Of a DNA stretch of 34,283 nucleotides, positions 112 to 14,425 are shown piece after piece. The stretch is from a virus: positions 1-34,283 of the IMG/VR virus record IMGVR_UViG_3300010151_000063; one strand, 5' to 3'. A model generated the notes under the pieces. That model saw only the letters and a list, made by a program, of their open reading frames with translations. It was not told where the DNA came from and did not search any database. Position numbers and translations under genes: made by a program. How positions within the stretch are numbered: the first letter of the stretch is position 1; each line of letters opens with the position of its first letter.

Positions 112-340
112 TGTCATTATTGAATGCCGTTCACTTAGTGAATGCTGTTCACATAGTGAATGCACTTCACGGAATGAAGGCCGTTCACCTAGTGAATGCC
201 GTTCACAGAACACCTAGCGTTCACGGAATGAACGTCGTTCACACAATGAATGCCGTTCACACAATGAACGTCGTTCACGTAGTGACTAGGGGTCACACAA
301 TGAATGCTAGTCACTTAGTGACCTCTATTGACACTTCAGG
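112..340. repeat. Iteron-like array: 13 palindromic 13-bp sites every 18 bp
   Basis: Thirteen related 13-bp sites start at 112, 130, 148, 166, 184, 202, 220, 238, 256, 274, 292, 310 and 328, an exact 18-bp period. The best copies are perfect dyads, for example TTCACTTAGTGAA (130-142) and GTCACTTAGTGAC (310-322). The copies at 112, 202 and 328 are degenerate. The linker is 5 bp and is often TGCCG or CGTCG. Several variant copies change bases but keep much of the dyad, which suggests binding by a dimeric protein. Possible roles are replication-initiator iterons, a partition centromere or a multi-operator control region. A TTGAC...GTCAA inverted pair at 56-72 may be a related outlying site. The binding protein is not identified. 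Confidence 0.85.
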
Positions 341-484
341 TCCGGTATTGACATGGCAAGACCCCCCCTGTCACGCGCACGCCCACGCAGGAACCACCCC
401 CCCCAAGGGCCCACATGCCGACCGAAGGGAGGTAGAGTCCCTCCAGACCCCTAACCAAAAATCGAATTTCCAAAACTCCTCCCT

Positions 485-550
485 GGTCAGAACAGGTCAC
501 AGATAGTCAGGCTAGGAAACATAGCTTAGCATCTAGGTCACCCACGGTCA
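485..550. repeat. GGTCA half-sites on a 10-bp period
   Basis: GGTCA occurs at 485-489 and 495-499, with AGTCA at 505-509; a second pair of GGTCA lies at 536-540 and 546-550. Spacing within each group is exactly 10 bp, about one helical turn, so the half-sites face the same side of the DNA. The 5-mer is related to the GTCAC/GTGAC arms of the 18-bp array upstream, so the same protein may bind both. The copies are short and the assignment is an inference. Confidence 0.4.
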
Positions 551-735
551 ACCCTTTGCTTTGGGTTAGTTTTTTCTACCGTTAGGAATGCTCTTTTTGA
601 TAGTAGCGGTAGAACGGTAGAAAAACGGTAGAACGATTATTCTACTTTCTAACTCTATTATAGTTGTTTTCTACCGTTTCTACCGATAAAATAAGACATC
701 AATAAATAATAACCAAACTCTTTCACACACACCCC

Positions 736-759
736 ACACACACCTGTGTGTTTTTTTTT
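736..759 (+). terminator. Weak hairpin followed by T9, possible terminator
   Basis: ACACAC (736-741) can pair with GTGTGT (746-751) around a four-base loop, and the stem runs directly into nine T residues (751-759). This is the layout of a rho-independent terminator on the + strand, but the stem is short and only half G-C. It may equally be a simple CA/TG tract inside the AT-rich origin-like segment. Confidence 0.3.
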
Positions 760-835
760 CTACGAGCACAAAACATAACAAAGTGCGGTAGAAAGGCCTT
801 TTGGGCCATAGCCCAGGGGGCAAGGGGCATAATCG

Positions 836-864
836 TTCTACCGATAGAAATCCTATCGGTAGAA
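836..864. repeat. Perfect 12-bp inverted repeat, TTCTACCGATAG arms
   Basis: TTCTACCGATAG (836-847) and its exact reverse complement (853-864) are separated by five bases. It has no T-tract after it and both arms match the site repeated elsewhere in the cluster. It is therefore more likely a pair of opposed protein-binding sites than a terminator. Confidence 0.6.
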
Positions 865-891
865 AACTCTCGTAGCGGTAGAAAACTCTCG
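857..891. repeat. Perfect 16-bp direct repeat, 19-bp offset
   Basis: CGGTAGAAAACTCTCG occurs at 857-872 and again at 876-891 with no mismatch. It extends the CGGTAGAA core by eight bases, so this part of the cluster has a recently duplicated or constrained longer unit. The first copy overlaps the right arm of the 836-864 inverted repeat. Confidence 0.65.
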
Positions 892-1133
892 ATAACCAAG
901 GGTCCAGCGTTGGCCCATTTTGCGTTTTCTACCGATAGCGAAGACGACTTCTACCGATAGCGGTAGAGGACGAAGTCCGACAAGCTCTGGCAGTCCTAGC
1001 CACAACTGTACCCCAGGTGAAGGCTGCGGCGGCCCCCAGTCCGTTGGGGTCCCAGCAGAAAAGTTGAGGAAGTTGTTTGACGGGGTAGGACAATTCCGAT
1101 ACCATGTCCCCACACCCTAGTTGGAGATAGTCC

Positions 1134-1352
1134 ATGCTTCCAGAGACACCCCTGCTCTACACCTTCGAGTCCGCTGGCCAGATCTTGGGCCTCAGTGCTC
1201 GCACCGTTCGCCGCCTCGTGGAAAGGAAGAAGCTCCGAGTCATCGTCTTGGGGATTGGGTCACGTACAACCTCGAAACGCATCCCCCGCACGTCCATCGT
1301 AGACCTCCTGAGCGCCTCCGAGCCTGATACAACAGACGCCTCTGACAACTAG
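1134..1352 (+). CDS. Small helix-turn-helix DNA-binding protein (excisionase/MerR-like)
   Basis: A 72-aa protein. Residues about 12-36 (SAGQILGLSARTVRRLVERK) match the helix-turn-helix of excisionase-type and MerR-type DNA-binding domains, followed by a basic strand or wing segment and an acidic tail rich in D and S. GGAG at 1123-1126 lies seven bases before this ATG and supports the start. It is the first gene after the repeat-rich region and precedes the primase-helicase by 40 bases. It is therefore a good candidate to bind one of the upstream repeat families, as a replication accessory factor or early-gene regulator. No integrase is visible in the window, so an excisionase role in the strict sense is not supported. 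The fold assignment is fairly sure; the role is inferred. Confidence 0.75.
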   Translation: MLPETPLLYTFESAGQILGLSARTVRRLVERKKLRVIVLGIGSRTTSKRIPRTSIVDLLSASEPDTTDASDN

Positions 1353-1392
1353 GTCCCCAGCCTAGAACACCATCCCCCCACAGAGGCGCATA

Positions 1393-3924
1393 ATGCAGGT
1401 TCCCCCTGACCCAGGATCTCCAGAAGAGGTCCTGGCCTACCTCACTACGCTCTACCCTGAGCGTAACGCCGTCCTTGAACTCCGAGCCCTCGGGGTACCT
1501 CAAGGCAGAAGAACAACTACCTTCTCGGGGTTCTTCGATGACTTCTCAGCCCTAGCCCGGGACGCTGTCCACTTAGACCAGCAAGGGGCTACGGGCATCT
1601 ACGTCACGTTGAACCCTGTCAACCCAGCCTTGCTGGCGCGCTGCTCCAACAAGGTCCGAATGGCCGAGAAGGGAGGAGGGACGCAAGACAAGGACATCGT
1701 TGAGCGGAAGTTCCTGTTCGTTGACATCGACGCAGACAGGCCCTCGGGTATCTCGGCCACCCACGAGGAGAAGGGGTCTGCCGCAGCCGTACTCAAGGAT
1801 GTCGTCCTCTGGGCAGAAGAGCAAGGTTTGCCCTACCCTACGGTCGCAGACTCGGGCAATGGCTTCCACCTTCTCTGGCGGCTTAAGGCAGAGGCCGAGA
1901 CAGAAGGCCATGAGAATCCCAAGAAGGACAGACAGAAACTCATCCAGTCCTTCCTACATTATCTGGACTTCCGCTTTGCCCAGCGCGGGGTTCTTATCGA
2001 TCCCTCGGTGGTTAATCCGTCACGGATCATTCGGTTGTACGGGACTCATGCCCGAAAGGGGGAGGACACGGAGAGTCGGCCTCACCGGAGAGCCCGCATC
2101 CTCCGAGCAGGAGACACCCGGCCAATCTCCTGGTCGAACCTACACGCGCTCCACAAGATGTCGCCCAGAGCGTCGGGGCTCAAGCGGGATGAGGCCAAGT
2201 CTACGCAGTTGGACATGTGGCTCCATCGCCACCAAGTTCCTGCCCATGGGCCTATCCCTTGGGCCAACCTTGGCCGCAAGTGGGTCTTCTCCGAGTGTCC
2301 CTGGGACAAGAGTCACACCGATAGCAGTGCCTACATCGTTCAGCTCCATACCGGGGGTATCGCAGCCGGGTGCCACCATGAGGACTGCCCAGGCAATGAG
2401 CGTGATAGCAAGAACCGGGCAATGGGTTGGCGGAAGCTACAGAAACGCTTTGGCAAGCTTGGGAGCAATCCCACTGCGGCAACCACTGCCGCAGCCCCTT
2501 CCACAACCTTGTCCCCGGGCCTCACGGACTTGGGCAATGCGAAGCGGCTCGTCCGCCACTACGGGGAAGACCTCCGATTCGTCGGGGACTGGAACAAGTG
2601 GGTCTACTGGACGGGCCTTCAGTGGAAGCAGGATGACGACCTGCCATATCATCTGGCCACTAACCTCTCGACCTTCATCTTCGCGGAGTCTAACGCCGCC
2701 AAGGCAGATGACCCCGACAAGGCCACCCTCCTCAAGAAGTTCGCGCTTAGAGCTGAGTCCAAGGCTGCCATGCAGGCCTCGGTGGGGCTTGCCAAGGTTG
2801 ACCCTAAGCTTCGAGCGGAGGGGGTCTTCTTCGACAGGAACCATCACCTACTCTCGACCCCAACGACAGCCATAGACCTCCGGTCTGGGGTTCTGCTAGA
2901 CCACGACCGTTCCCACGGTATCACCTGCCTTACGAACGTCTCTTACCAAGAGGAGGCAGAGTGTCCCCAGTGGGAAGAGTTCGTACACTGGATGATGAGT
3001 GGTAACGAAGCTCTGATAGACTACATGCAACGGCTCGTGGGCTACTTCGCTACAGGTGAGGTTCAGGAGCAAGTCCTTGTCTTCTTCGTCGGCGACGGGG
3101 CAAATGGCAAGACCACCTTCATCAATGTGCTGCTGAAGTGTCTAGGTGCAAACTATGCTTCACCAGTCCCAGCTACAGTCTTGGTCCGGTCTAATGTAGA
3201 CCAGCACCCAACGCATGTCGCGGACCTACGGGGGAAACGGCTTGGAGTTGTCTCGGAGTTGGACCGGTCGAGCGTCCTGAACGAGGGACTCGTCAAGCAG
3301 TTGACGGGGTCGGACCAGATCAAGGCCCGGTTCATGCGGAAGGACTTCTTCAACTTCGACCCGACCCACAAGCTCTGTGTCTTGACGAACCACAAGCCTC
3401 TCATCCGAGGCACGGACCATGGGGTCTGGCGACGTATCCACCTCGTGCCTTTCGAGCAGACGATCTCGGAAGACAAGATGGACTTCCGGCTTGAGCAGAA
3501 GCTCCTCGATGAGGGGCCTGGGATCTTGAACTGGATCATCGAAGGCGCAAAGCAATGGTACGAGCAAGGCTTGTGTCCCCCCGAGGAAGTACGGGCCGCT
3601 GTGGAGAAGTACCGGAAGGAGTCGGATTGGCTGGGGGAGTTTCTCGAAGAGAGGACCGCGCCTCAAGACCAGGGACGGCTACCTGTGATGAGTCTGTACG
3701 CAGCCTACCAGGAGTGGGCCGAGGACCGAGGTGAGAAAGTCTACGGGGCAAGGTCCTTCTCGAAGGCAGTCCGCGAGCGGGGCTACGAGAAGATTGTCGC
3801 CAAAGAGAAGGTGGGCAGTACCTGGCGTAGCCTCAAGTGTTGGCGTGGCTTGCGTCTCGTGTCCGTCTTCGACGGGGCAGACCGTAGCCCGAAAGTACGG
3901 ATAGATCCAAATAATTGGCATTAG
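1393..3924 (+). CDS. Primase-helicase: AEP-type primase fused to SF3 (D5-like) helicase
   Basis: An 843-aa replication protein. The N-terminal domain has the archaeo-eukaryotic primase signature: FVDIDAD with metal ligands D111 and D113, then DSGNGFH (153-159) with H159, then a PSRIIRLYGTHARKG segment. A Cys/His cluster (C302, H308, C327, C332) probably binds zinc. A D5_N-like segment (about 385-540) leads into the SF3 helicase: Walker A GDGANGKTT (567-575), a Walker B-like GVVSELD (618-624), sensor asparagine in CVLTN (662-666) and the arginine region WRR (679-681). The protein would prime and unwind DNA at a phage-encoded origin, as P4-type and plasmid primase-helicases do. AGAGG at 1382-1386 supports the ATG. 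It follows the helix-turn-helix gene and the repeat-rich region, which suggests a self-contained replication module. All key motifs are intact. Confidence 0.93.
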   Translation: MQVPPDPGSPEEVLAYLTTLYPERNAVLELRALGVPQGRRTTTFSGFFDDFSALARDAVHLDQQGATGIYVTLNPVNPALLARCSNKVRMAEKGGGTQDKDIVERKFLFVDIDADRPSGISATHEEKGSAAAVLKDVVLWAEEQGLPYPTVADSGNGFHLLWRLKAEAETEGHENPKKDRQKLIQSFLHYLDFRFAQRGVLIDPSVVNPSRIIRLYGTHARKGEDTESRPHRRARILRAGDTRPISWSNLHALHKMSPRASGLKRDEAKSTQLDMWLHRHQVPAHGPIPWANLGRKWVFSECPWDKSHTDSSAYIVQLHTGGIAAGCHHEDCPGNERDSKNRAMGWRKLQKRFGKLGSNPTAATTAAAPSTTLSPGLTDLGNAKRLVRHYGEDLRFVGDWNKWVYWTGLQWKQDDDLPYHLATNLSTFIFAESNAAKADDPDKATLLKKFALRAESKAAMQASVGLAKVDPKLRAEGVFFDRNHHLLSTPTTAIDLRSGVLLDHDRSHGITCLTNVSYQEEAECPQWEEFVHWMMSGNEALIDYMQRLVGYFATGEVQEQVLVFFVGDGANGKTTFINVLLKCLGANYASPVPATVLVRSNVDQHPTHVADLRGKRLGVVSELDRSSVLNEGLVKQLTGSDQIKARFMRKDFFNFDPTHKLCVLTNHKPLIRGTDHGVWRRIHLVPFEQTISEDKMDFRLEQKLLDEGPGILNWIIEGAKQWYEQGLCPPEEVRAAVEKYRKESDWLGEFLEERTAPQDQGRLPVMSLYAAYQEWAEDRGEKVYGARSFSKAVRERGYEKIVAKEKVGSTWRSLKCWRGLRLVSVFDGADRSPKVRIDPNNWH

Positions 3925-3936
3925 GGGTGGGACAAC

Positions 3937-4746
3937 ATGGGTAGGAAATCAAGGCGGATCCCAGCCAAAGGTAATCCGGTGCTTCGCCCCGGGTCTTGCT
4001 GTGACCCAGTACCCTTACAGCCCTCGGGCTTACTACACGTACTACTCCATGCGCCCTCGGAAATTGAGGAGCTACGGTTCGGGAGGACCTCACGCTGGGA
4101 TGGGTTCTACCTCGCTGCGGTGTGCCATCGACGGAAGTATTACCCTTGGATGCAGCTTTCCCAAGGCAGACCGAAGAAGGCGATCTGGGATTGGATCGAA
4201 CGGTCCCCCGCTGTCGCGGAGTGGGTCCTCTCGGACGAGTCTTTCCGAGCCCCGAGGGATTGGCCCGACTCGGTCCTTGCCGCCTTTGGGCAAGTACCCA
4301 TCCCCGAGCCTGTGGATTTCGCCAACATAGATTGGGGAAAACATAGGTGGCTACTTGCAGACCATAATATAGCGGTACTTCAGGCCTATACCTTTGGGGT
4401 GGACATCCCTACCCTCAAACAGATGCTCCAGACTTCCGACAAACAGGTCCATGCCCAACTTGCCCAAGGGGTTCGGACACTGTTGGAGTACCCCACGTTC
4501 AAGCTCTGGTGTACCCCTATTGACTGGAAGTACATGGTCATCCCCGAGGGTCTGGGTAGTGATATCTTTGAGCAAACAATCATGGCCTCTACTCTACGGA
4601 AGAACCCCTTTGCCGCACCAGCTTGGGCCTCGGAGGTGGTAGTGACCACGTTGGCCTATGGGGCTTATGCTAGGAGTGATGTTCCGAAGAAGCTCCTTCT
4701 GGCCCGGGAGTTTCGGACTCCCCCATTTCTTGTGGCTCCCCCCTGA
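3937..4746 (+). CDS. Unknown protein with possible sigma-region-4-like helix-turn-helix
   Basis: A 269-aa protein that I do not recognise as a whole. The first 45 residues are basic and Pro-rich. The middle has several Trp residues. Residues about 142-184 (containing AVLQAYTFGVDIPTLKQMLQ and then TSDKQVHAQL) resemble the spacing of a sigma-70 region 4 or similar helix-turn-helix, but the match is by eye and weak. It lies 12 bases after the primase-helicase and 18 bases before the small-terminase candidate, so it could belong to either the replication or packaging block. The upstream Shine-Dalgarno is poor (GGGGTGGG run), so the start is not certain. A transcription or packaging DNA-binding role is possible. 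Confidence 0.6.
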   Translation: MGRKSRRIPAKGNPVLRPGSCCDPVPLQPSGLLHVLLHAPSEIEELRFGRTSRWDGFYLAAVCHRRKYYPWMQLSQGRPKKAIWDWIERSPAVAEWVLSDESFRAPRDWPDSVLAAFGQVPIPEPVDFANIDWGKHRWLLADHNIAVLQAYTFGVDIPTLKQMLQTSDKQVHAQLAQGVRTLLEYPTFKLWCTPIDWKYMVIPEGLGSDIFEQTIMASTLRKNPFAAPAWASEVVVTTLAYGAYARSDVPKKLLLAREFRTPPFLVAPP

Positions 4747-4764
4747 ATACAGTAGAGTGTCCCC

Positions 4765-5190
4765 ATGGCAAAGAAATCTTCCTCGAAGTCGGTCGGTCGT
4801 CCACGGAACCCCCCAGCCGGGGAGTGGACCCAGTGGTTGAATCTTGTTCCACAGGACAAACGCGAGGGCGTGGCTAAGGAGCTAGAGAAGCACAAGGTCA
4901 CCGATTACGAGGGGTTGATTGCATTCTCGCAAGCCATGATGATCAACCTACTCCGTGGGACGATTGCCCCCGAGATATCGCGGGAGATCAAGAGCTGGAC
5001 CCAGTTGATCTTCACCATGGTCTCCACCCAGCAAGGGGACGCCGGTTCGCCAGACAAGGCGATTGAGCAGGTTCTGTCGGCCCTAGCTACCGTGGCCAAG
5101 TCGGCCCCTAAGCTTCAGGCAACCTACACCGTGGTTGAGGCAGTGCCTATCGAACCTGAACGAATCTTGCTCAAAGCGAATGAGAAGTGA
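4765..5190 (+). CDS. Putative terminase small subunit
   Basis: A 141-aa protein whose stop codon overlaps the start of the large terminase gene by four bases (GTGA). It has a basic N-terminus with an AT-hook-like GRPRNPP, then mostly helical sequence (about residues 20-118) without membrane segments or cysteines. Length, helical content, an N-terminal DNA-binding patch and position directly before terL fit a small terminase subunit, which recognises the packaging site and recruits the large subunit. There is no diagnostic motif, so the call rests mainly on position. The alternative is an unrelated small DNA-binding protein. Confidence 0.5.
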   Translation: MAKKSSSKSVGRPRNPPAGEWTQWLNLVPQDKREGVAKELEKHKVTDYEGLIAFSQAMMINLLRGTIAPEISREIKSWTQLIFTMVSTQQGDAGSPDKAIEQVLSALATVAKSAPKLQATYTVVEAVPIEPERILLKANEK

Positions 5191-6893
5191 GCGACACCCC
5201 CCAACAAGGGATCGAGGCGCTACGCGACCCCGCCATTTCCCTACGGGCCTATGGACAACTCATTGATCAGGCCTCGGGGGATGCACGCCTTTATGACCCC
5301 CATGCAATCACCCATAAGCTCCAAGAGACCATCGTTGGGTATGTCTCGGAGCCTCCGAGAACGGAGTTCGGTCAGGTCAAATGGCTCAACTTACTCGGCT
5401 ACCGGCAGGGTGGCAAGAGTCTGACGGCAGAGTTATGCGGCTACGTCAAGACGGCTTACAGTCCCGGCTATGATGCCGTCTGCATTGCTGATAATCGAGA
5501 GCGCGCCGAGTATCTGCACCAAAGGGTGCACTACTGCCACAAACGGTGGCCCGAGATTATTCGTACTGGTACCATTTCCACCCGTGAGGTACGGCAGCTA
5601 ACCTTCGAGAATGAGGTTGGCGGGAAGATGCGCGTCCTCACGGGTGATGGTGATGCCGTTGGTATCGGGCAGTCTCCCGACTTTTTCCATGGCAGCGAGC
5701 TTGCATACTGGCGTAGTGCGGCAGAGCAATACTCATTGATCTACCCTTCCATGATCAACCGGGACCACGCCCTGATGATTCTGGAATGCACGCCATGTCC
5801 CATGGATGCCCCGTCCGCCGAGTGGTGGATGGACAAGTGCCGTGATGCACAGAGAGGGCATGGCCGAGACCTCTACGCCTTCTTCCCCTTCTGGGACGGC
5901 AAGCTCAACCAACGCCCCTGGCCCACGGGGGCCCAGATGCACAAGGAAGAGCTACAGTTGATGGAGCTATACGGGGGCAAGGGACTAACGAAAGAGAACC
6001 TTGCTTTCCGCCGTCTGATGATGGATACCGACCCCAAGATTCGTCGGAACCCAGACCTGTTCAAGGTCTACTACCCCTTCGATGATGTGACCTGTTGGTT
6101 GGCGTCAGCCGGGGGTGTCATTCATCCGAGCTTGCTCAAGCGTCACCATGCCCGGAAGCTCATTCCATGGCAACCACCCTACATGGAGTACGAGCCCCCG
6201 GAAGCAGGGGCCACCTACGTCATTGGCGTAGACCCGGCTGGCTATGCAGCACGGGACCACGCGGCTTTTCAAGTGCTGAAGTGTTACGATCGGGAATGGA
6301 CACAGGTGGCGGTTTATGCGGCTATCACCGATCCTATTCCGTTTACGCGGAAGCTCCTACAGGTGGCCGAACGGTACAACCACGCTCTGGTAGGGGTCGA
6401 GTCCAACGGGGTCGGAGCTGCGGTGATCGCGCTGCTTCAGGACGCCGGGCTCAAGAATCTGTACCACGAGAAAGCCTACAAGCCCGGGATTGCGGCTACG
6501 TCGAAGTCTATAAACGAGATGCTCTCCTGGCTACAGGATGCACTCAAGGACGAGCTGATTCTCCACGACGCAGACACGGTGGCCCAGTTGACGAGCTACC
6601 GTCACGATAAGAGCACGGAGAGGACGGCCACCTCCGAGGCCTTGCGCCGAGATGGCGCAGGACGCGGACGCAGGGAGCGACACCACTGGGACAAAATCTC
6701 GGCCCTCCAGATTGCCGTAACCCTCGCCAGGCGGGCCCCCACACGACATAAGCGAGAGACTCTGGATAATGTGATACCGCTTTTCCATGAGATGCCTTAC
6801 GATAGGCAACGAAAGTACCTAGATCAAGTTGAGAAGAGTAAGAAGAACGATCGGCGTCGTCGCCGAGCGTCTTACCCCCGTCGGAGGAAATGA
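5187..6893 (+). CDS. terL: Terminase large subunit (packaging ATPase and nuclease)
   Basis: A 568-aa DNA-packaging motor protein. The ATPase domain shows a Walker A-like GYRQGGKS (71-78) and a Walker B region FFHGSELAYW (167-175) with the catalytic glutamate at E171. The C-terminal RNase H-like nuclease shows the three expected acidic positions: D349 in YVIGVDPAG, E405 in VGVESNG and D502 in HHWDKISALQ. The C-terminus is very basic (RRRRRASYPRRRK). It would cut concatemeric DNA and pump it through the portal. The start is a GTG at 5187 that overlaps the previous stop, so translation is probably coupled. The end overlaps the next gene. Confidence 0.93.
   Translation: MSDTPQQGIEALRDPAISLRAYGQLIDQASGDARLYDPHAITHKLQETIVGYVSEPPRTEFGQVKWLNLLGYRQGGKSLTAELCGYVKTAYSPGYDAVCIADNRERAEYLHQRVHYCHKRWPEIIRTGTISTREVRQLTFENEVGGKMRVLTGDGDAVGIGQSPDFFHGSELAYWRSAAEQYSLIYPSMINRDHALMILECTPCPMDAPSAEWWMDKCRDAQRGHGRDLYAFFPFWDGKLNQRPWPTGAQMHKEELQLMELYGGKGLTKENLAFRRLMMDTDPKIRRNPDLFKVYYPFDDVTCWLASAGGVIHPSLLKRHHARKLIPWQPPYMEYEPPEAGATYVIGVDPAGYAARDHAAFQVLKCYDREWTQVAVYAAITDPIPFTRKLLQVAERYNHALVGVESNGVGAAVIALLQDAGLKNLYHEKAYKPGIAATSKSINEMLSWLQDALKDELILHDADTVAQLTSYRHDKSTERTATSEALRRDGAGRGRRERHHWDKISALQIAVTLARRAPTRHKRETLDNVIPLFHEMPYDRQRKYLDQVEKSKKNDRRRRRASYPRRRK
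6883..6887 (+). promoter_or_regulatory. Shine-Dalgarno GGAGG deciding the start of the next gene
   Basis: GGAGG at 6883-6887 precedes two adjacent ATG codons at 6890 and 6893. The spacing to 6890 is two bases, which is too short. The spacing to 6893 is five bases, so 6893 is the preferred start. It lies inside the end of the large terminase gene. Confidence 0.6.
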
Positions 6894-8827
6894 TGGCCAA
6901 GGAAATCGCTTACGAAAAGTATGGGGCCAAGAAGCATACTATGCTGCCCGCCACGAAACGGAAGCAGGCGAAGGCCAGGAAGGCGGAAGAGAAAGGGACA
7001 AAGGCCAAGAAGGAGGACAAGTCAAAGCAACGGGAAACGAGGGTCTCATCGAAGGCTAAGGCCACGCAGGGCAGCAGTGGGGACTCCCAGTCTTCGGATA
7101 AACCCGCAAGTATGGCTACTGGTACACCACGTACTGCGTCCAAGCAGGAGTATCGGGATGCACAGCGCGGCTGGCATGTTCGTCAGGGGGCGGAGGATGA
7201 TCGAGGTTGGCGAGACCTCACGAAGGAGGAGAAGGCCGAAAAGCAGGCGGACTGGGCTAAGCGAAGAGCTGATCTTGATACAGACTATCCAAGCTCTGCG
7301 TTGCCCGACACCTGGACTGGTACACGCGGACATAGCGATGCCCCAACACCAGGCGACTCCGATGTACTGACGGACCCCAATGACGGTCGGTATCAGTACC
7401 AAATCCTAGCTAACGATAAAATCAAGATCGTTGCCGCCCCAGATGACACGGACTTCAAAGGGATGATTCTCGATGACCCGACCTCTAAGGCGTATAAGGC
7501 CATCATGGGGGTCTTCAAATCGGGTGAGAGTCCTAGTGCCGGTACGGGTGGCGCAGACCCTACAGATAGGGTTGATTCGAGCGGGTCTGGGCCAGGAACG
7601 TCCGAGCCAGCCGACGATCTTTCCTTCTCGTCCCGTGACGTAGCTGACCGAACCTGGGACCAGTATTATGGTGACTCTTTGGAGACCACGCCCCCCGATG
7701 GTCCTTATCAGGATTGGTCCCACCTAGACCCCAAAGGCCAAGTCGAAATGGAGCCTCTTACAACTACGAGCGATCCTACAGTGATCGAGGCCGGGGAGGG
7801 GGAAGAGCCTCCCCCTCAGTCAGACCCTGAACCCCAGTATTTGTCTGGCGATGAGGGCGCAGCCGCCCACAAAAAGTGGGCAGAGTCGCACCCCAGCTCT
7901 GAGCAGGTGGTGCCGGAAGATCAACCGGTGGCTGCGCCTGAGTCTGCGCCTGATGTAGTGTCCAGCGACACCTCGGCCTTGGATGATCTTGCAGATATTC
8001 GCCCCGAGGGTCTGGGAAGTCGCGCCCTCGATGATGAAGCAATGCCTGCTTCCGCTACAGATGCCGCTCGTATGGCTCAGGCGCGTGAACTCCCCCGTAG
8101 ACTAGGTGAGTCGCCGCCCGAGGATTTTGATGTGGGCCAGTACGAGCATAACCTTCCCCCTCAGTCTGCGGCTGGAGCTGCCGGTCAACCTAAATACGCA
8201 GGGACAACGTCAGATCAAGAAGACAACCTTCGTCGATTGCGTGAGATGTATAAGACTGAAGGGGTTGAGACGGCACCGAATCTAGGCGAGTCACCGCCTG
8301 CGGTCGATGATACTATGGACCAGCACGAGTACAACCTTCCCCCTCAGTCAGAGCAGCCAGACCCCATGGGGCGCAACCAGGCTGTGGATCTGGCTTGGGA
8401 GAAGGACCTGGCAAACCGAAAGTCGGCACTAGACAGGCACCGGGGTGATCTCTTCGACGAAACAGGTACCCCCAGAGCAGGCCAGTTCCCGGCAGGCCAT
8501 GAGTTCCGAAAGCCTGGTGATCTACTAGGGGCCGATCAACCAAAATCGGTGTTGGATGAATATCGTGGGGACTTCTTTGATGCGTCAGGCGCACCTCGGG
8601 CGGGACAGTTCCCCTCAGAGCATGAGTTCTACTCTGGGGACGACCCCATGGGGACCAAGGCCGCAGTGGATTTGGCTTGGGATAAGGACGAGTTGTTACG
8701 GTTGGTGCGAGGCAAGTCAGATGAACAGAGGGCCATGGTCTCGGGGATCCTGAAGGGGAAGCACGGGGCAGAGCTTGCTGCTGCCATAAAGCGTATACGC
8801 TCTATCATTTCGCGGGGAGAGAGTTGA
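6893..8827 (+). CDS. Low-complexity protein with internal duplications between terL and portal
   Basis: A 644-aa protein without a recognised domain. The first 70 residues are strongly basic (many K, R, A). The middle is acidic and rich in D, E, S, P and G, with one more ordered stretch near nt 7378-7500 (DGRYQYQILANDKIKIV). The C-terminal third is built from duplicated blocks. LGESPP...NLPPQS occurs at about 8102-8169 and 8282-8349. A block ending GTPRAGQFP or GAPRAGQFP occurs at about 8420-8508 and 8543-8629. DPMG...AVDLAW is at 8361-8408 and 8641-8688. The final 50 residues are helical and basic. Position suggests a minor virion or assembly protein, but no function can be assigned. Predicted disorder and charge could fit an internal head protein. 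Confidence 0.75.
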   Translation: MAKEIAYEKYGAKKHTMLPATKRKQAKARKAEEKGTKAKKEDKSKQRETRVSSKAKATQGSSGDSQSSDKPASMATGTPRTASKQEYRDAQRGWHVRQGAEDDRGWRDLTKEEKAEKQADWAKRRADLDTDYPSSALPDTWTGTRGHSDAPTPGDSDVLTDPNDGRYQYQILANDKIKIVAAPDDTDFKGMILDDPTSKAYKAIMGVFKSGESPSAGTGGADPTDRVDSSGSGPGTSEPADDLSFSSRDVADRTWDQYYGDSLETTPPDGPYQDWSHLDPKGQVEMEPLTTTSDPTVIEAGEGEEPPPQSDPEPQYLSGDEGAAAHKKWAESHPSSEQVVPEDQPVAAPESAPDVVSSDTSALDDLADIRPEGLGSRALDDEAMPASATDAARMAQARELPRRLGESPPEDFDVGQYEHNLPPQSAAGAAGQPKYAGTTSDQEDNLRRLREMYKTEGVETAPNLGESPPAVDDTMDQHEYNLPPQSEQPDPMGRNQAVDLAWEKDLANRKSALDRHRGDLFDETGTPRAGQFPAGHEFRKPGDLLGADQPKSVLDEYRGDFFDASGAPRAGQFPSEHEFYSGDDPMGTKAAVDLAWDKDELLRLVRGKSDEQRAMVSGILKGKHGAELAAAIKRIRSIISRGES

Positions 8828-13149: not shown

Positions 13150-13542
13150 ATGCCTAAAGACGACCCTAGTGCTTATAGCCCCCAGGACGTAGCCCAAGAA
13201 CTCTTGGCGTTAGACTCTGCCGAGGCGATCGTGACACGCCTTGATGAGCTGGGCTGGGAGCTTGCTCCTTCTGGTCAAGCAGCGGAGGAAGGCATTGGAG
13301 ACGAAGGCCCCTTTGATGAGGTTATGGGTGGCGAAGGGGACGCTTCAGATTTTGAAGGCGCGGAAGAAGAGATGGAAGAGGACGCGGGTGGCTCCGACGT
13401 TCCGATGCCAGTGGGGCCCAAACCTCCGTACCTCACAGTTCTACGCATGAGTGCTGTGGATAAGGCCTTCGATAAACACGGGAAGAAGGGCAAGAAAAAG
13501 AGCAAGAAGGGTATGGACGAGGACGGCCTATATGCCTCCTGA
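13150..13542 (+). CDS. Small acidic-then-basic protein upstream of the scaffold
   Basis: A 130-aa protein. The first half is acidic and helical at its start (SPQDVAQELLALDSAEAIVT), followed by a Gly/Asp/Glu-rich region. Residues 98-107 read LRMSAVDKAF, then a run of Gly and Lys (KHGKKGKKKSKKG) and a short tail. The motif is shared with the protein at 10694 and with the scaffold C-terminus. The gene starts just after a promoter-like element, has only a weak Shine-Dalgarno (GGA), and ends 11 bases inside the scaffold gene. The inference is a partner of scaffold or capsid, perhaps a second assembly factor. No family is recognised. Confidence 0.75.
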   Translation: MPKDDPSAYSPQDVAQELLALDSAEAIVTRLDELGWELAPSGQAAEEGIGDEGPFDEVMGGEGDASDFEGAEEEMEEDAGGSDVPMPVGPKPPYLTVLRMSAVDKAFDKHGKKGKKKSKKGMDEDGLYAS

Positions 13543-14425
13543 TGAAGTAAGCACTGCTCCGGTAGCGGTTGAAGCTGCCCCTGCTCCTGAAGCCACTCCT
13601 GCCCCTACTACTACCTCTTCTGGGGCCAACTCTAGTTCGGATGGTCCGGTCTCGGGGGCGACCTCTCCTGCCCCCGAGGCCACACCGTCCGTAGTCGAGG
13701 GCGAAATCACACCCTCGCCCTATGACTCTTACAACTGGAATGAGTGGGACGGAAAGTATACTTCCTGGCCCGACGAGTTCCAGGGATGGGGAGAGAGGCT
13801 TCATGCGACCCTGGACAACGAGCGAGAGCAGATCCAGAGCCAGCAGGAGCTGTATAGTAATCTCCTAAGTGGCGCTGGGGATTCTCGTGCCGATGAGCTG
13901 TCTACGCAGATCGAGACACACCTGGAGAACATCCAATCGCTGGAACAGAAGATTGCCTCGGGGGAGGCAGCACTTCTAGCGGAACAACAGCGTTACAAGG
14001 TCTATCAGGATACCGTAGCCTCCGTGTTGGAGCAGGAAGCCGAACGTCATTATGACCGGTTTATCCGACAACATAGTGATGTTTTTACGAATGCGGACCT
14101 GAACACTAAGTTCGATACTCTTCTCGCCGAAGACTGGGAACCCGAAGATGCAGTGGGGGCTGTCCGCCTTTCGGACACAGCCTTCAAGCTCGTTCGCGCA
14201 GCAGTCAAAGAGGGGACTCCGGTACATCGTGCCCTGGAGTTGGCCGAGGCGAAACAGGCTCTGTCTGAGCCCCGACCCAGACCAGGGGCGAGGCTTACCT
14301 CGGGCGCTCGCCCCGGGGCTCGTCCACACCAGACGAATCGGATTGAGAACCGGAAGCCGCGAACCTTTGCAGAGATGCGGGAGTTTGCCATCGATAAGGC
14401 TTTTGCTACCCAGAAAAGGAAGTAA
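13532..14425 (+). CDS. Scaffolding protein
   Basis: A 297-aa protein placed directly before the major capsid gene. The ATG at 13532 is preferred over an upstream in-frame start at 13451 because the extra 27 residues would lie wholly inside the previous gene and are an arginine-rich out-of-frame reading of it. The N-terminal 60 residues are rich in Pro, Ala, Thr and Ser. Residues about 85-175 are helical with strong coiled-coil character and many Gln and Glu. The C-terminus is basic and ends with MREFAIDKAF (282-291) and QKRK. A coiled-coil body with a basic C-terminal coat-binding helix is the known P22-type scaffold layout. It would guide procapsid assembly and leave or be degraded. No protease domain is seen here. 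Confidence 0.75.
   Translation: MPPDEVSTAPVAVEAAPAPEATPAPTTTSSGANSSSDGPVSGATSPAPEATPSVVEGEITPSPYDSYNWNEWDGKYTSWPDEFQGWGERLHATLDNEREQIQSQQELYSNLLSGAGDSRADELSTQIETHLENIQSLEQKIASGEAALLAEQQRYKVYQDTVASVLEQEAERHYDRFIRQHSDVFTNADLNTKFDTLLAEDWEPEDAVGAVRLSDTAFKLVRAAVKEGTPVHRALELAEAKQALSEPRPRPGARLTSGARPGARPHQTNRIENRKPRTFAEMREFAIDKAFATQKRK

Follow-up and report, generated by a model that had tools for sequence, protein, structure and literature searches.

What role does an exactly phased array of short inverted repeats play upstream of the replication genes of a phage? The question is raised by a 34,283-nucleotide stretch of viral DNA (positions 1 to 34,283 of IMG/VR record IMGVR_UViG_3300010151_000063, here called the window), which carries near its left end a run of TGAA and TTCA half-sites with a repeat of 18 base pairs (bp). 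A sequence-only reading of the window had described the run as 13 palindromic sites that bound protein dimers would coat, with iteron origins and partition centromeres as possible analogues. Here, we report an exactly phased array that is replaced, in a sister phage, by a differently spaced set of the same half-site and that recurs in other phages, and we weigh what such an array may do.

Results

The core of the array lies at 121-322 (non-coding features are given without strand), where TGAA and TTCA half-sites alternate on a strict 9-bp grid and fill 22 of its 23 slots. The sole lost slot is at 211 (CACC), and four of the filled slots, near the right end of the array, hold TGAC/GTCA variants. 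The half-site repeat is exactly 18 bp with zero drift, on an underlying spacing unit of 9 bp, and 18 of the 19 exact TTCA/TGAA half-sites within 95-345 fall on a single 18-bp phase. Scored against this grid, the array reaches 16.4 (17 of 18 half-sites, 121-277). First-order shuffles of bases 1-1130 never exceeded 2.0 in 2000 trials, nor did shuffles of the whole window exceed 2.4 in 200, so the array is real and far beyond chance. Counting from 130, TTCAC opens nine successive 18-bp units and GTCAC the following two, with TTCACTTAGTGAA at 130 and GTCACTTAGTGAC at 310. Both half-sites are present in ten units (130, 148, 166, 184, 220, 238, 256, 274, 292 and 310); the unit at 202-219 (TTCACAGAACACC) is degenerate, its right half-site being gone, and the left-edge unit at 112-129 (TGTCATTATTGAA) has a right half-site only. 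What stands at 328 (TTGACACTTCAGG) is no further unit; DNA common with a sister phage, itself without such an array, begins there. The period and the absence of drift thus stand as first described, whereas the count of 13 falls to 10 full units, or about 11 sites.

Uniform 18-bp units are also what a decaying minisatellite would show, a functionless array grown by tandem duplication, given that slippage generates tandem repeats. This explanation is very improbable in our view: the units are 84% identical in the half-site columns and 52% in the others, the spacing is without drift, unrelated phages have arrays with this half-site and pitch, and the sister phage retains the half-site in a different layout. 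A coding hexapeptide repeat was rejected, as the third codon positions in the frame of the open reading frame at 66-506 vary least, not most.

Two 13-bp dyads, TTCA-N5-TGAA and TGAA-N5-TTCA, interleave on the 18-bp repeat, and both are patterned in the window. Because TTCA and TGAA alternate at equal spacing, the 5-bp 'linker' of the sequence-only reading is itself the centre of the second dyad. In eight non-coding arrays of other phages, collected with a search pattern that required neither Y nor R (pyrimidine, purine), the Y..R pair flanks the second dyad (TGAAY-N3-RTTCA) at 47 of 49 sites and the first at 15 of 43; one other array scan required Y and R and is uninformative on which dyad is conserved. 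From these counts we take TGAAY-N3-RTTCA as the likely, putative conserved site of these arrays and the remaining five bases as spacer, so that the earlier choice of TTCA-N5-TGAA as the repeat centre was probably off. The best copy of the second dyad, TGAACGTCGTTCA, is a palindrome except for its central base and is found at 229-241 and again at 265-277, and TGAAYNNNRTTCA is found at 121, 139, 193, 229, 247 and 265. For neither dyad is there a clear sign that a substitution on one side is matched on the other, and the changes are too few to decide the matter: at the outer pair of TTCA-N5-TGAA three units are altered on one side and one on both (G..C), and the four TGAC/GTCA variants form two neighbouring pairs at the right end (283/292 and 310/319), which is suggestive only.

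One contig (L004) is the same phage as the window and begins 4 bp further left; two contigs of one phage therefore end within 4 bp (window bases 1-5), just left of the array. The sister phage L005 is 99.6% identical to the window over 329-6898 and 96-99.9% identical across much of the remainder up to 26853, and bases 1-328 of the window have no block match in it. Still, the left flank at 60-94 is recognisable in L005 at 83%, and the common sequence sets in at 329-345, the junction at which the array stops. The array thus fills a block (95-328, about 234 bp) that can be exchanged, and its counterpart in L005 is about 243 bp. There are no TGAAY-N3-RTTCA sites in L005 and no TGAAY-N4-RTTCA sites in the window. 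Instead, L005 carries five TGAAY-N4-RTTCA sites, two of them overlapping, where 0.05 are expected per 20 kb: three lie within the counterpart block, the two that overlap lie immediately to the left of the left flank, and its 31-kb record has no further site. These sites are unphased (3 of 17 half-sites on the best phase). Scrambled spacing in a relative, which the sequence-only reading had named as evidence against an array of this kind, is thus found in L005, yet the half-site itself is kept and only the phasing is not. A further relative, L006, the primase of which is 93% identical, has a single TGAACACTGTTCA in the corresponding intergenic region. The gene left of this region runs leftward in both L005 and L006; the L005 gene has no similarity to that of L006, and its structure model was too poor to be used (predicted local distance difference test, pLDDT, 49).

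The same period was also sought further afield. Alternating-grid scans, followed by an open-reading-frame check, found non-coding 18-bp arrays in about 14 other phage contigs (L003, L038, L039/L048, which are one phage, L040, L044, L046, L049, L054, L099, L108, L111, L116, L120 and L122), so the 18-bp architecture recurs in unrelated phages. Some of these arrays are short, and L120 has one full site. When TTCA/TGAA half-sites alone were scanned, the 9-bp grid was found in 20 contigs, coding repeats included, and a 10-bp grid (20-bp repeat) in one. In the unrelated phages searched, most TGAAY-N3-RTTCA sites of a genome are grouped at one locus or a few, and a reversed-pattern control gave zero in most records. 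No such sites were found in four terminase relatives of the window phage, no DNA similar to the array in annotated phages and plasmids, and nothing relevant on comparable phage arrays in the open-licence literature. Most bacterial-genome matches to the loose pattern resemble coding repeats, being located inside long open frames.

Related layouts turned up in three further contigs. L084, a more distant relative, has about four direct 9-bp repeats (AGTGAAYSA, 3529-3561) upstream of its primase gene, with half-site and pitch as in the window but in direct orientation. The final 570 bp of L131 (IMGVR_UViG_3300017971_000891, 13213-13781) hold two TGAAY-N4-RTTCA arrays with periods of 20 bp and 18 bp. 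In L163, TGAAC-N4-GTTCA pairs 18 bp apart recur between small genes, with eight sites at the locus (for example 6928, 6946, 7661 and 7679); these also fit a Gram-positive LexA-type box.

Terminase genes are close to more than half of the arrays in other contigs, as would be expected of a packaging signal recognised by the small terminase subunit. The large terminase is confirmed by family in six contigs (L038, L048, L049, L046, L111 and L120), and near the L116, L122 and L108 arrays it is assigned by position and adjacent-gene resemblance only. In the window, however, the terminase genes are more than 4 kb off, past the primase: a candidate small subunit (4765-5190, + strand, 141 amino acids), named solely for its position before the large subunit and without a family match, and the large subunit itself (5187-6893, +). 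Moreover, the sites of several phages are split into two or three clusters, and the window and L005 have a terminase region in common but differing site arrangements. A packaging role is highly unlikely on this evidence.

The array also has an iteron-like layout, about 1.1 kb upstream of a gene for a D5-type DNA primase/helicase (1393-3924, +, 843 amino acids), and in L038 and L049 a primase gene follows a small winged-helix gene on the same side; an initiator could thus bind the array and open an origin beside the primase operon. In an iteron origin the repeats would be expected to be conserved with the replication protein. The phased array is not, as L005 has a 99.4% identical primase and no phased array, but a second set of repeats does travel with the primase. 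Twelve CGGTAGAA/TTCTACCG repeats at 574-956, separate from the array, have the same count, sequence of copies and orientations in both L005 and L006, even though the L006 DNA around them is 79% identical, and none was found elsewhere in the sequences checked. These repeats are the likely replication origin, moving together with the genes at 1134 and 1393, which makes iterons unlikely for the 18-bp array and weakens the analogy drawn earlier. Inside the same region, at 735-763, lies a terminator-like hairpin, CACACACACCTGTGTG, followed by a T run.

The products of the 1134 and 1393 genes had been put forward as proteins to be tried for binding to the array. The former, at 1134-1352 (+), is a small HTH_17 protein of 72 amino acids and is identical in L005. 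Since L005 keeps both proteins while its sites are unphased, a binder specific for the phased array is unlikely to be either one, and both are poor candidates; one of them may nevertheless read single half-sites whatever the spacing.

Some other arrays suggest a different kind of protein. In L038, L039/L048 and L049 the array sits in a divergent intergenic space, with a small winged-helix gene on one side and terminase genes on the other, and in L108 two site clusters flank a winged-helix gene that lies further off. The small proteins of L038 and L049 are 45% identical (L048, 31%; L108, 22%), and all four have the recognition-helix residues S-x-L-x-Y-L in common. For the L038 protein the structure model, of good confidence (pLDDT 89.5), shows a winged helix preceded by a long N-terminal helix; by sequence it matches the HTH_11, ArsR and MarR families, and by structure winged-helix regulators generally, none below an E value of 0.001. 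The L049 protein has weak matches to CzrA/HlyU. Array-side genes of L003 and L111 are candidate homologues added by eye, and a profile built from them matches them by construction. Homologues of the L038 protein were found only on its own contig in the viral collection, in a search reaching close relatives only, and none was found in annotated phages.

Discussion

Our tentative reading is that the array serves as an operator with many sites, covered by dimers of a phage regulator whose gene would lie to the left of the window; we put the chance of this a shade below even. The operator would occupy the intergenic control DNA that separates a leftward module (off the contig) from the rightward origin-primase-terminase module. 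We infer that a phage-encoded DNA-binding protein, most likely a small winged-helix protein with its gene just left of base 1, would bind as dimers to successive TGAAY-N3-RTTCA sites 18 bp apart, that contacts between neighbouring dimers would help binding and so account for the exact pitch, and that coating of about 200 bp would repress or switch the divergent promoters. The N4 sites of L005 are confined to the replaceable block and the edge of its left flank, as diverging operators would predict. A tightly packed array of dimer sites, as first proposed, therefore remains reasonable and gains from the same architecture in unrelated phages, whereas the repeat centre chosen with it is probably off and the binders named with it are poor candidates.

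Several results weigh against the operator. No winged-helix gene of the L038-type family was found in the window, L005 or L006, and none is visible beside the N3 arrays of L040, L044, L046, L054, L099 and L122, some of which lack a flank. A forward test on 16 contigs in which TGAAY-N4-RTTCA sites are paired 18 bp apart failed, with no homologue encoded in any of them, so the winged-helix link holds at most for some N3 arrays. Eleven sites are more than simple repression needs, and L005 manages with unphased ones.

Among the nearest described sites are those of ArsR/SmtB regulators, in which winged-helix dimers recognise 12-2-12 imperfect inverted repeats with a similar half-site core, TGAAC..GTTCA; a published SmtB/ArsR-type site reads TGAACA-GA-TGTTCA (PMC8790569). 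Inverted half-sites with a TGAA..TTCA core are present in the window (the TGAAYNNNRTTCA copies). The window dyads have N3, however, one base shorter than the N4 of the 12-2-12 geometry, which is the spacing in L005, and ArsR/SmtB promoters usually carry one or two sites rather than eleven in phase. A search for an ArsR/SmtB-type protein (PF01022) gave no match in G000, G002, G003 and G004, which are fragments and do not cover the DNA left of the array. ORF80/Stf76 of Sulfolobus plasmids and plasmid-viruses is likewise small and of the winged-helix type, and the DNA upstream of the gene that encodes it has TTAA-N7-TTAA palindromes (PMC4027180), but these two sites are 60 bp apart and the window array is packed.

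A small protein coating repeats could also mark the partition centromere of a plasmid-like phage, in the style of TubRC, ParG/parH or omega/parS. Across 20 records, many of them fragments, we found no match to a ParA-type ATPase (PF13614), to a tubulin/TubZ-type GTPase (PF00091) or to an integrase; actin-type ParM was not searched. Although most of these records are fragments, the result weakens integrative lysogeny and the two partition types searched, and with them the centromere analogy, and we consider partition quite unlikely. The omega/parS system has a ribbon-helix-helix protein and 7-bp repeats, whereas the window half-sites strictly alternate every 9 bp. In omega/parS of pSM19035, short half-sites are arrayed over promoters and repeat number tunes affinity; in TubRC (type III partition), a small winged-helix protein coats a repeat array and also represses its own operon (PMC5016525). 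The tubC repeats are direct, however, whereas the window half-sites flip orientation every 9 bp, and TubRC comes with the tubulin-like GTPase for which we found no match.

A broader proposal is that unrelated phages share an undescribed control element: exact 18-bp TGAAY-N3-RTTCA arrays, in many cases placed where the replication module meets the packaging module, that would be bound by a small phage winged-helix family polymerising along the DNA and switching the two modules. We regard this as doubtful. The array and its recurrence in unrelated phages, often beside packaging genes and sometimes beside a small DNA-binding-protein gene, hint at a regulatory stretch that a protein of the phage would cover. 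If a phage protein does coat these arrays, the exact 18-bp pitch across phages of very different base composition would hint that protein packs on the DNA with one geometry in all of them, and control regions of this kind could be recognised by their array, from sequence alone, in uncultured phages. The window and L005, near-identical over long stretches and differing in this block, offer a natural experiment in the change of such putative operators.
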